Of a stretch of 64,000 nt of DNA, positions 4,796 to 19,701 are shown piece by piece. Source of the stretch: Buttiauxella warmboldiae (GTDB lineage Bacteria; Pseudomonadota; Gammaproteobacteria; Enterobacterales; Enterobacteriaceae). The notes below the pieces were generated by a model. That model saw nothing but the letters and a program-made list of their open reading frames with translations. It was not told the origin of the DNA and searched no databases. Position numbers and translations under genes: made by a program. Numbering within the stretch: the first letter of the stretch is position 1; the number at the start of each line of letters is the position of its first letter. The stretch is from contig NZ_RPOH01000001.1 in assembly GCF_003818135.1 (NCBI RefSeq), forward strand, positions 1 to 64,000, read 5' to 3'.

Positions 4796-5290
4796 TTATT
4801 GTTCCGCTTCCTGCTTGAGCTTATCCAGTAAGGCTTTGCATACCGGTTCAGGCAGGAAGTGCGCCACATCGCCATGATGGCGGGCAACTTCTTTCACCAG
4901 CGACGAAGAGACAAAAGACCACTCTTTCGACGGCATCAGGAACACGCTTTCCAGCTCCGGCATTAAGTGGCGGTTCATATGGGCCAGCTGCATCTCATAC
5001 TCAAAATCTGCCGCGGTGCGTAAGCCCCTGACCAGAACGTTAGCCTGTTGAGCGTTGGCAAAATTCGCCATCAAATCGCTGAATCCAACCACCTCAATAT
5101 TAGGCAAATGAGCTGTCACAGCTTGTGCGAGCTGCACCCTCTCTTCCAGCGTGAACAGGGTTTTTTTATGCGGGCTATTTGCAATCGCCAGAATCAGGGT
5201 GTCGAACATCATCGCTGCGCGCGTCACGATGTCCAGATGACCGTTAGTCATAGGATCGAAAGTTCCTGGATAGATTGCTCGGGTGGTCAT
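4796..5290 (-). CDS. coaD: Phosphopantetheine adenylyltransferase
   Basis: CoaD transfers AMP from ATP to 4'-phosphopantetheine, forming dephospho-CoA, the next-to-last step of CoA synthesis. Nucleotidyltransferase motifs are present: [12 protein letters not shown] (the TxGH ATP-binding signature), [12 protein letters not shown], and [14 protein letters not shown]. The start at 5290 gives MTTRAIYPG, in register with relatives. The protein is then 164 residues, about five longer than the common 159, because of a slightly extended C-terminus. The ATG overlaps the waaE stop in an ATGA arrangement, so it is the last gene of the waaA-waaE-coaD unit. Confidence 0.96.
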
Positions 5291-6063
5291 AAAGGTTTGG
5301 TTTCCGTATAGCCTTGATTCAGTGCCCAAAGTTCAGCGTACTTGTTAAACGTATACTGTGCGTTGACCACAGCCAGCAGCCAGCCCTGTTTCCCATCAAG
5401 AAAACCGGCACGTAATAGCAGCGTTTTACAAAATGCGCCAACCGTATGACCGAAAATGCCCGCCATAGAGACTCGCTTGCCACGCTGGTGGCGTTCTTGC
5501 GCCCAGGCTGTCGCATAATTTAACTGTTTGCGCTGGAAGCTTGCGAAGTCGCGACAGGTTAAATGAAGTAGATCCCCCTGAAGCGGGATCACTCTTGCCC
5601 CTGCGGCATCGAGAGATTCATGAACCTGATTGTCATTATAGCGATAGCGCGAGCGGGCATAGAGGCGAGTCACACGATCCGGATACCAGCCGCTATGGCG
5701 CATAAAACGGCCAAGGAACAGGTTGCGACGCGCGATACTGTAAACAGCATCAGCCTGAGGGTTTTCTAACACCGATTTAAGCATGCTTGCCAGCTCTGGT
5801 GTGACGCGCTCATCGGTATCGATCATCAAAATATAATCGTGGCTGGCGTAGCTCTGTGCGAGCTGACGTTGTTTGCCAAAACCCTGCCAGTCTTCATTAA
5901 TGAAAACTTTCGCACCTGCCTGAAGGGCTATCTCGACGGTAGAATCGGTACTTCCGGAATCCAGCAACACCACCTCATCTGCCCATGAGACTGACGCCAG
6001 GCATTCTGGCAATACGTCTGCTGCATTTTTAGCGATCATCACGACGGACAAACGGTTGGCCAT
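5287..6063 (-). CDS. waaE: LPS inner-core beta-1,4-glucosyltransferase WaaE (GT2 family)
   Basis: This GT2 family enzyme (258 residues) matches WaaE (KdtX) of Klebsiella and Serratia, which adds a beta-1,4-linked glucose to heptose I of the LPS inner core. The N-terminal nucleotide-sugar domain begins [18 protein letters not shown], contains DSGSTDST, and has the metal-binding MIDTDERVT (about residue 95). A C-terminal helical tail probably associates with the membrane. The start overlaps the waaA stop by one base (TAATG) and the stop overlaps the coaD start, so the three are translationally coupled. E. coli K-12 and Salmonella lack WaaE, so this gene marks the Klebsiella-type inner core. Substrate is inferred from family and context. 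Confidence 0.92.
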
Positions 6064-7358
6064 TAATGACTCCGCTGCGGAAGGTACGGTTGCAGTAATT
6101 GTAGCAAGCGTTGTAGTGCGCCCTGATTCTGATGCAGCACTTCTACGGCATGACGGCCATAGTACAGGCGATAATCTTCATCGGTTAGCAGGGTTGTTAT
6201 CTCGTTAACCAGCGAGCCGGCATCCGTAACGGTAATCAGCCCATCTGCATTCTGTAATCTGGCGCATATGTCTTTGAAGTTGAAGGTGTGTGGCCCCATT
6301 AAAACGGGAATAGCGTGCGCGGAAGGCTCCAGTGGATTATGGCCCCCACGTTCCACCAGGCTGCCGCCCACAAAGGCGAGGTCGGCAATGCCGTATAACA
6401 TCATCAGCTCGCCCATAGTATCGCCAATTACGACCTGGGTACTGCTGGAGGGCTTTTCGCCACTGCTGCGCATGATGTAACTGAAACCACCTTTCCGAGC
6501 CATATCCCGTGCGTCTTTAAAGCGCTCAGGATGGCGTGGGACCAGAATTAACAGTAAATCAGGGAATGTGGCCAGCAGCTGGCGGTGAGCATCCAGAATA
6601 ATGCTCTCTTCGCCGTCGTGAGTGCTGGTGGCAATCCACACTTTGCGATGCGGCGCCCACTGACGGCGCAGTGTTATTGCACGGGCAGCGAGTTCTGGAG
6701 TCACGGAGATATCAAATTTCAGGCTGCCGGTAACCGTCAATTGCGAGCGTTTCAGACCCAGTTCGATGAAACGGCTGCCGTCTTCTTCATTTTGTGCAGC
6801 AATCAGCGTGATTTTACTCAGCAAGCGCTGGGTAAAACGACCCAGCTTCTTATAGCCTTTTGCCGAGCGGGCTGAAAGGCGAGCGTTAGCAATCACCAAC
6901 GGGATTTTACGTTGATATAACTCGTTGATCATATTGGGCCACAATTCGGTTTCCATCACGATAACCAGTTTAGGGCGCACGGTATTAAAGAAGCGTTTCA
7001 TGGCGCAAGGGAGATCGTAGGGCAAATAGACGTGATGCACGTTTTGCCCAAAAGCCGATTCAGCGCGTTCCGATCCTGTTGGCGTCATGGTGGTGACGGT
7101 AATCGGAATGGTTGGGTAGCGATGGCGCAGGGCGCGAACTAACGGAATGGCCGCCAGCGTCTCGCCTACGGAAACTGAATGCAGAAGAATACCTCCGGGC
7201 TCCACTTTTCCACGGCAATAGCCGTAGCGTTCCGCCCAGCGTTTACGGTACGCAGGAGCTTTGCGGCTACGGAGTAACAGTCGCAGCCATACAAACGGCT
7301 GAATAAGGTAGAACAGAGCGGTATACAACGATTCCAAGCGAATTTTCCGTATTTTCAT
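6063..7358 (-). CDS. waaA: 3-deoxy-D-manno-octulosonic acid transferase
   Basis: WaaA (KdtA) is the GT30 enzyme that attaches Kdo residues to lipid IVA at the inner face of the inner membrane. It is the first committed step of LPS core assembly and essential in most enterics. The sequence has an N-terminal membrane anchor ([19 protein letters not shown]), then [11 protein letters not shown] with the catalytic Glu, METELWPN, and the C-terminal nucleotide-binding part with [15 protein letters not shown]. The start is uncertain: the ATG at 7358 gives 431 residues, a TTG seven codons later would match the usual length of about 425, and an ATG at 7382 lacks a ribosome-binding site. It is followed directly by waaE. 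Confidence 0.95.
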
Positions 7359-18752: not shown

Positions 18753-18768
18753 GCGTCAGGCTACCTGC

Positions 18769-19701
18769 TTATGCGTCACGGTTCAGCCAGGCCATATATT
18801 CTGTCACGCCTTCGGCGACAGTTTTAAATGGCTTGTCGTAGCCCGCAGCACGCAGGTTGGTCAAATCGGCCTGAGTAAATGCCTGATAGCGGCCTTTGAG
18901 CTTTTCCGGGAACGGAATGTACTCAATGCTGCCTTTTTTATGGAATGCCAGGGCTGCGTCAGCAACGGCCTGGAAGGATTCCGCACGACCGGTACCGCAG
19001 TTATAAATACCGGAGACACCGTTCTGCCAGAACCACAGGTTAACCGCTGCAACATCACCCACGTAAATGAAGTCGCGCTTAAAGCTATCGCTGCCTGCAA
19101 ACAGTTTTGGATTTTCGCCGTTGTTCAACTGGGTGTTCAGATGGAACGCAACGCTCGCCATGCTGCCTTTGTGGCCTTCGCGTGGCCCGTAGACGTTGAA
19201 GTAACGGAAACCGGTAATCTGGGAGTTAGCTTCAGGCAGGATCTGGCGTACATATTCGTCGAACAGGAATTTGGAGTAGCCGTAAACGTTTAGCGGCTGC
19301 TCGTATTCGCGAGACTCGATGAAGTCGCTATTGCGGCCGCCGTAGGTCGCAGCGGAAGAGGCATACAGGAACGGAATTTCATGTTCCAGGCAGTAATGCA
19401 GCACTTCTTTGGAGTACTGATAGTTATTATCCATCATGTACTTGCCGTCCCACTCGGTAGTGGAGGAACAGGCGCCTTCATGGAAGATGGCTTCAATATC
19501 GCCGAACTCTTCCCCCGCCATAATCTGGATTAAGAAGTCTTCTTTATCCATGTAGTCGGCAATGTTCAAATCCACGAGGTTGGCGAACTTGGTGCCATCC
19601 TTCAGGTTATCCACCACCAGGATATCCGTAAGGCCGATATCATTCAGGGATTTAATGATGTTGCTGCCAATAAAGCCAGCACCGCCGGTGACAATAATCA
19701 T
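18769..19701 (-). CDS. hldD: ADP-L-glycero-D-manno-heptose 6-epimerase
   Basis: HldD converts ADP-D-glycero-D-manno-heptose to the L-glycero form that the heptosyltransferases use. It is an extended short-chain dehydrogenase/epimerase of 310 residues with the NAD(P)-binding [15 protein letters not shown] at the very N-terminus and the catalytic YGYSK tetrad element near residue 140. [14 protein letters not shown] is also conserved. The start at 19701 is fixed by the Rossmann motif; an upstream in-frame start at 19746 would add 15 unconserved residues. It heads the leftward LPS operon and is divergent from kbl. The E. coli gene (htrM) is heat-inducible, but I could not see a convincing heat-shock promoter here. 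Confidence 0.97.

Follow-up and report, generated by a model that had tools for sequence, protein, structure and literature searches.

The window, a stretch of 64,000 nucleotides at the start of contig NZ_RPOH01000001.1 of Buttiauxella warmboldiae, carried a lipopolysaccharide (LPS) core locus at positions 4796-19701, where every gene was an open reading frame at the position given by an earlier note made from the letters alone. The locus was a new version of a familiar system: relative to the Klebsiella type-2 core locus, which it resembled, one step was swapped, one gene was lost and a glycosyltransferase of family 9 (GT9) was additional. It was bounded by hldD, encoding the heptose epimerase (18769-19701), and coaD (4796-5290), a flank marker that is not part of core biosynthesis and whose product was 81% identical to that of E. 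coli. All genes lay on the minus strand except wabN, the GlcNAc (N-acetylglucosamine) deacetylase gene (12184-13155, plus strand). The leftward run from hldD consisted of waaF (heptosyltransferase II, 17691-18752), waaC (heptosyltransferase I, 16738-17703), a wabK-like gene for a family 4 glycosyltransferase (GT4) (15569-16738), waaL (O-antigen ligase with PF04932, 14308-15576) and a WaaB-like GT4 gene (13145-14239), which converged on wabN with an overlap of 11 bp. Beyond wabN there were two more leftward runs, the first consisting of waaQ (heptosyltransferase III, 10995-12071), wabG (9871-10998) and wabH (8762-9868), and the second of a fourth GT9 gene, here called GT9x (7426-8550), waaA (Kdo, 3-deoxy-D-manno-oct-2-ulosonic acid, transferase, 6063-7382), waaE (family 2 glycosyltransferase, GT2, 5287-6063) and coaD. 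The probable starts of waaL (15576), the WaaB-like gene (14239) and coaD (5290) were ATG codons downstream of the longest open reading frame starts. Gene direction and gaps fitted the three leftward units and one opposite-strand gene proposed in the earlier note, but no promoter support for the units was found. Shuffled sequences had more promoter-like sites (mean 25.0) than the DNA itself (16) and fewer terminator-like sites (15.7, sd 4.3, compared with 26), so neither kind of site served as evidence. No Rfam match was obtained in 4000-24200, and no ops/JUMPstart element was detected with four short motifs.

Comparison with the K. pneumoniae locus L066 revealed identities of 75% for WabG, 73% for WabH, 79% for WabN, 68% for WaaQ and 73% for WaaE, and WaaA was 85-86% identical to the gene of a K. 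pneumoniae core locus. Orthologues of WaaE, WabG, WabH and WabN thus lay between hldD and coaD in K. pneumoniae order, as in the uronic acid type of core and as the earlier note had proposed. WaaA matched NF004385 at 862 bits and WaaQ matched TIGR02201 at 539.6 bits. WabN, both in the window and at 7854-8816 of L066, had no Pfam match at E 0.1, and the window protein had no NCBIfam match at 0.001. The claim that WaaG and WaaO are absent held over the whole 4.30-Mb assembly, in which no orthologue of WaaG, WaaP or WaaO was found. The best WaaG match there was WabG itself at 27% (WabG was 26% identical to E. coli WaaG), and the WaaP and WaaO queries gave no match at E 0.001. WaaO belongs to family GT8, as does WaaR. 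The four PF01075 (GT9) proteins of the core locus, including the fourth one reported before, were the only ones in the assembly.

The GT4 left unassigned in the earlier note is, judged from its sequence, WabK-like, as expected in the Klebsiella type-2 plan. It was 67% identical over 389 amino acids to the gene after waaC in the K. pneumoniae locus L068 (CP125156), 71% to its counterpart in G152, a genome of another genus in the same GTDB family, 70% to that in G070 and 55% to that in Budvicia (L022), and it carried an E-x7-E motif. The order WabK-WaaL-WabM was common to L068, Budvicia and G070 (L075). The names WabK and WabM in L068 are presumed from the slots and the type-2 plan, and the fact that these two genes are annotated only as "glycosyltransferase" in their record counts against the type-2 assignment. 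WabK and WabM are described as acting distal to galacturonic acid (GalA), and the WaaL substrate in a type-2 strain as beta-Glc(1->6) (PMC9431683). The window shared with L068 the order hldD-waaF-waaC-wabK-waaL-slot-wabN (opposite strand)-waaQ-wabG-wabH and then waaA-waaE-coaD, with identities of 67% for WabK, 68% for WaaQ, 72% for WabH, 74% for WabG and 81% for the open part of WabN; the waaC and wabN frames of the L068 record were short. In contrast, WaaL was only 38% identical (49% to that of G152), the WabM slot was taken by the WaaB-like GT4, WabO was missing from between wabH and waaA, and GT9x was additional. The gene content therefore reads as the Klebsiella type-2 plan with three changes: a WaaB-like GT4 in the WabM slot, wabO gone, and an extra GT9 before waaA. 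The chromosomal core loci of Klebsiella and Enterobacter used here (L066, L067, L068 and L069) were found in PLSDB records filed as plasmids.

The WaaB-like protein resembled E. coli WaaB, as had been noticed before. Among NCBIfam families, it matched NF007396 far better than any other (361.9 bits, E 3.1e-108), although this score fell below the cut-off of 385 for the RfaB equivalog, and its best solved-structure match was WaaB (E 6e-76). These matches would favor a true hybrid: a locus of the Klebsiella type would have acquired a WaaB of the E. coli type, and this enzyme would attach galactose by an alpha-1,6 linkage, as it does in E. coli. However, the identity was 36% to WaaB of E. coli K-12, 41% to the protein of P. 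mirabilis and 67% to that of G152, and this nearest relative sits in another WabG-type locus. In a sample of the family with 198 genomes from 154 genera, 23 genomes had a WaaB-like protein of at least 200 bits and 69 had a WabN match; by hand count, the two lay at most 5 kb apart in five (the window, G152, G048, G002 and G003). In a second sample of 392 genomes, 52 had a WaaB-like protein at E<=1e-50; apart from the window, G152 (67%) and G368 (51%) had the best matches. A tree was built from 44 rows, namely 42 of the 55 WaaB-like places, those with their context viewed, together with P. mirabilis and E. coli K-12. Six rows with a stop inside the match were entered as the longest open piece, of 267 amino acids for G335 and 357-379 amino acids for G346, G357, G125, G009 and G362. 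K. aerogenes L067 was left out of the trees because its frames were broken. The contexts comprised 19 WaaG/WaaP loci, nine WabG/WabN loci (the window, G152, G048, G281, G274, G002, G003, G319 and P. mirabilis) and 16 stretches with neither, so that WaaB-like genes were repeatedly present in WabG/WabN loci outside the window's genus, Proteus mirabilis and Limnobaculum being two examples. All 19 proteins of the E. coli plan, with two of the 16 rows of neither kind, were on one side of a branch supported at 97/99, and the window protein paired with G152 (100/100) outside it. Placing the WabG-plan label on this tree required six changes, at least four of them on supported branches; therefore, WaaB-like genes entered or left WabG-plan loci several times. 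In one further stretch without wabG or wabN (L086, genome G346), a WaaB-like gene (47%) was found with a WabK-like neighbor (46%) and a weakly WabM-like gene, which is possibly a second, split-off core site.

The donor site was compared with the six UDP-galactose (uridine diphosphate galactose) residues named for S. Typhimurium WaaB, V186, K195, I216, W243, E268/E269 and E276 (PMC10556518). V186, K195, W243, E268 and E276 were identical in the window protein and I216 was replaced by V, at a position where the E. coli clade itself carries I, L or V; R188, Q194, Q244 and P247 were also retained. All eight donor-pocket residues that are invariant in the E. coli clade were kept, which speaks for the hybrid and suggests that the protein likely uses a UDP-hexose donor. 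This retention barely exceeded the background of 39 of 52 invariant positions in the C-domain (P 0.08). In the acceptor groove, three of eight residues were changed and five kept, against 18 changed and 31 kept among 49 positions of the N-domain. E8, K125 and K126, which do not vary across the 21 rows of the E. coli clade, were Y, L and Y in the window, which stands against the hybrid, although such changes were no commoner than elsewhere in the N-domain. A reading of the acceptor from these groove residues was rejected, since their rate of change equals that of the N-domain background and the sequence therefore gives no indication of the acceptor. Both background comparisons weigh against the pathway proposed below. 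Moreover, the E. coli acceptor, Glc-HepII (glucose on heptose II), requires WaaG, which is absent from the genome. The hybrid was rejected by the WaaB tree, and we regard it as very improbable; the idea of mixed Klebsiella-type and E. coli-type enzymes put forward in the earlier note was not upheld. Instead, the WaaB-like lineage appears, from the tree, distinct from E. coli WaaB, and the protein is predicted to be a UDP-hexose, probably galactose, transferase for the last core hexose.

WabO is reported as one of two GalA transferases of Klebsiella (PMC6358824, PMC12220298). A GT2 gene, WabO by its slot, followed wabH in K. pneumoniae, E. hormaechei, G152, G177 and nine of 12 species of the window's genus. 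No wabO orthologue was found in the window genome, where the best match was a GT2 outside the locus at 22260-22958 (33%). Instead, the 211-bp gap after wabH encoded on the right strand 20-33 residues similar to the WabO C-terminus (8590-8688, minus strand; tblastn, E down to 2e-5), and 17 of 19 WabO sequences matched the gap at E<=0.05. The profile score of 4.9 bits was reached by one of 1000 dinucleotide shuffles. With moderate confidence, the gap may be taken as the scar of a wabO deletion. Three points count against this: the remnant was short, its profile score was low (one shuffle gave 5.2 bits), and blastn found no match between the gap and the G152 or G177 loci.

The GT2 gene mentioned above, here called GT2y (22239-23186, plus strand), was located between tdh and yibQ, which is the waaH site of E. 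coli L065. Its product belonged to the WaaH/WabO group (34% identical to WaaH and 33% to WabO) and scored 176.5 bits against NF007482, below the cut-off of 423 that both WabO (546.7 bits) and WaaH (635 bits) exceeded. A GT2y homologue was present at tdh-yibQ in all three genus species without wabO (the window, G019 at 80% and G200 at 48%), and the genes of this type in wabO-lacking relatives were at 7003-7971 of L083 and 5077-6033 of L084. None was seen at this site in the nine species carrying wabO. Eight of these nine had a 410- or 441-amino-acid protein, a GT4 in the one tested, together with an unassigned 308- or 332-amino-acid protein, and the ninth (G202) had a 380-amino-acid frame. GT2y as a general alternative to WabO or WaaH was rejected in the 198-genome sample, in which 16 genomes carried the GT2y lineage (at least 184 bits). 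Eight of them had no WabO or WaaH protein and eight had one, and the link within the genus rests on 12 species; both facts weigh against GT2y as a substitute. Because the pattern fails family-wide, GT2y in place of WabO stays a lead, and the gene is a candidate modifier of HepIII (heptose III).

GT9x occupied the same slot beside waaA in three genera (the window, G152 at 58% and G177 at 57%). It matched PF01075 at 71-72 bits (cut-off 22) and carried the N-terminal GD motif, which is a mark of GT9 enzymes. In the GT9 tree, it fell in a supported group of 15 rows (100/99) apart from WaaC, WaaF and WaaQ, in a tree with long branches that meet. Five of the seven rows outside its own eight-row clade adjoined wabN (P. 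mirabilis, G106, G119, G078 and one of those from G048). For the core genes of P. mirabilis, Aquilini is said to have described in 2010 in J. Bacteriol. the heptosyltransferases WamA and WamC, the galactosyltransferase WamB and the GlcNAc transferase WamD. In the part of a review table that bears on P. mirabilis, wamD and wamA are listed between waaC and wabN, and from this gene list we infer that the GT9 beside wabN is WamA; that the WaaB-like GT4 of the same locus is WamB is a guess. In E. amylovora, heptose can hang on the GalA added by WabG, according to PMC5372575. The tree group, the wabN neighbors, the P. mirabilis wamA listing and the E. amylovora heptose together make an accessory heptosyltransferase the best guess for GT9x. 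A GT9x-like gene was also found between the suc genes and the cytochrome bd (cyd) genes in L028 (8430-9605), and, judged by equal neighbor sizes, at the same site in L027, L029 and L031; therefore, the family is not confined to core loci. These relatives at an unrelated site would be expected if GT9x were cargo that takes no active part in core synthesis. The constant slot beside waaA in three genera and the open frame with its GD motif argue against cargo, and we consider this explanation rather unlikely compared with a role for GT9x in the core.

The locus of G152 (L024, L070) had the gene set and order of the window's locus, with identities of 67% for the WaaB-like protein, 71% for WabK and 58% for GT9x, but it retains wabO between wabH and GT9x. 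Proteus mirabilis ATCC 29906 (L021) shared WaaQ-WabG-WabH, WabN, the WaaB-like GT4 (41%) and a GT9 beside wabN (33% to GT9x), whereas its gene order was different and no WabK relative was found in the stretch. Two other P. mirabilis strains, H63 and H110 (L119/L120), were without the two extra core glycosyltransferases, one of them WaaB-like, that ATCC 29906 has at this locus. The waa cluster of Edwardsiella tarda EIB 202, whose core has been solved by nuclear magnetic resonance, has the WabN, WaaQ, WabG and WabH backbone and a WabK-similar protein, but its gene table lists WapB and WapC, with WapE beside WaaA, and contains no WaaB-like protein or extra GT9 (PMC5485987). E. coli K-12 (L064) shared the flanks, WaaC, WaaF, WaaQ and WaaA and a member of the WaaB family at 36%, whereas its locus followed the WaaG/WaaP/WaaO plan without WaaE, WabG, WabH or WabN. 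The gene set of the window was matched by none of the named loci compared (K. pneumoniae, E. hormaechei, P. mirabilis, Limnobaculum, Budvicia and E. coli); therefore, the core is probably not identical to a described one, in agreement with the earlier note. Among the open-licence papers searched, which leave out most core-genetics papers, none was found to describe a core locus composed of these genes, and this precise type of core has probably not been described before; G152 does have the same order with wabO in addition.

The genus comparison covered the window and 11 other species. The flanks were of the genus type: hldD was 95-98% identical to that of all 11 species (92-93% to E. coli and Klebsiella), waaF 92-94% to the 11, and waaE 93-94% in the three genus loci that cover it. 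WaaA was 95-97% identical in 10 of the 11 (partial in seven) and 77% in G019. In contrast, the interior proteins WaaQ, WabG, WabH and WabN were only 56-73% identical to those of nine genus species. The flank tree placed the window with 10 other genus species (100/100), and G019 fell with E. coli because its waaA is E. coli-like. In the interior tree, the window was placed with G106 (100/100) and Klebsiella-side loci, while the interiors of nine genus species grouped with E. hormaechei (100/100). Constraining the interior tree to monophyly of the genus was rejected by the approximately unbiased (AU) test (p 2.3e-104). The break could be followed within waaC, whose first part was genus-like and second part was not. 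In 125-base steps, identity between the window and eight majority species was 75-85% in 17253-17752 and 55-67% in 16753-17252, whereas the eight were 73-89% alike among themselves in 16753-17252, which placed the break at about 17250. At the waaA end, the window was 36-47% identical to three genus species upstream, and this value rose to 90-92% within about 100 bases of the start of waaA. With breakpoints inside waaC and at the waaA start, the interior was therefore exchanged as a block of 9.9 kb (about 7.39-17.25 kb), and it differs from those of the sister species by recombination. Positions 17003-17127 of waaC were 87% identical to G200, with adjoining patches at 66-71%, so small mosaic pieces occur within the gene.

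The direction of this exchange was considered separately. The window interior pairs with that of G106, and the flanks of G106 form the sister group of the genus (100/97); therefore, the window type may be the older one. The locus of the window could then be an old, vertically kept type, and the nine other WabG-plan species would have received an Enterobacter-like type, in keeping with the grouping of their interiors with E. hormaechei. The waaC break, which sets the window apart from the waaC block common to eight majority species, argues against this, and we see the old type as quite possible, if short of an even chance. The interior G+C content does not decide between the directions: in the window it was 43.4%, compared with 52% outside the interior, and the two majority loci measured had interiors of 42.4 and 43.4%. 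Other core plans were also observed in the genus. Nine of the 12 species had the WabG plan with wabO, whereas G019 (L032, 6589-18484) had an E. coli-plan locus with WaaG (78%), WaaP (78%), WaaB (61%) and WaaO (53%) and no waaE at the locus, so that both core chemistries occur in one genus. A fourth core plan was found in G200 (L061, 7545-15484); this stretch encoded a relative of WabG (49%) and several proteins without an assignment, and no WabN was seen in it.

Together, these results make it probable that the locus is a complete uronic acid (WabG/WaaE) core locus and a variant of the K. pneumoniae type-2 plan, with a pathway that can be proposed from orthology and from the functions of WabG, WabH, WabN, WaaQ, WabO, WabK and WabM as stated in published papers (PMC5372575, PMC9431683, PMC6358824 and PMC12220298 among them). 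WaaA, WaaC and WaaF would build Kdo-HepI-HepII, WaaE would add a hexose to HepI, and WaaQ would add HepIII. WabG would transfer GalA to HepII and WabH would transfer GlcNAc to this GalA, to be deacetylated by WabN to glucosamine (GlcN), to which WabK is predicted to add glucose (Glc). From its slot, family and donor site, the WaaB-like GT4 would then extend the WabK glucose by a final hexose, galactose or glucose being most likely. It would replace WabM, the source of the (1->6)-linked glucose on which WaaL acts in Klebsiella type 2. wabO would have been deleted, perhaps leaving the 3' scar, so that GalA on HepIII would be missing, or may be replaced by the product of GT2y beside tdh. GT9x would probably add an accessory heptose, as its family suggests. 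That all these parts combine into an undescribed core type, with the WaaB-like protein capping the WabK glucose, GT9x adding an extra heptose and the HepIII decoration moved from WabO to GT2y, is tentative and on balance doubtful.

The outer core is the place where O-antigen is attached. It is needed by some phages, as described in PMC13412088, and in Klebsiella it helps to hold the capsule, according to PMC12220298. Given these roles, knowing which enzyme occupies each slot allows the core type to be read from genomes, and a best database match to WaaB does not imply an E. coli-like core. Within this genus, the interiors of core loci have been swapped between waaC and waaA. If the undescribed core type is real, core chemistry would change as exchangeable modules within one genus; the 12 species compared here represented four core plans, including a complete E. 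coli type.

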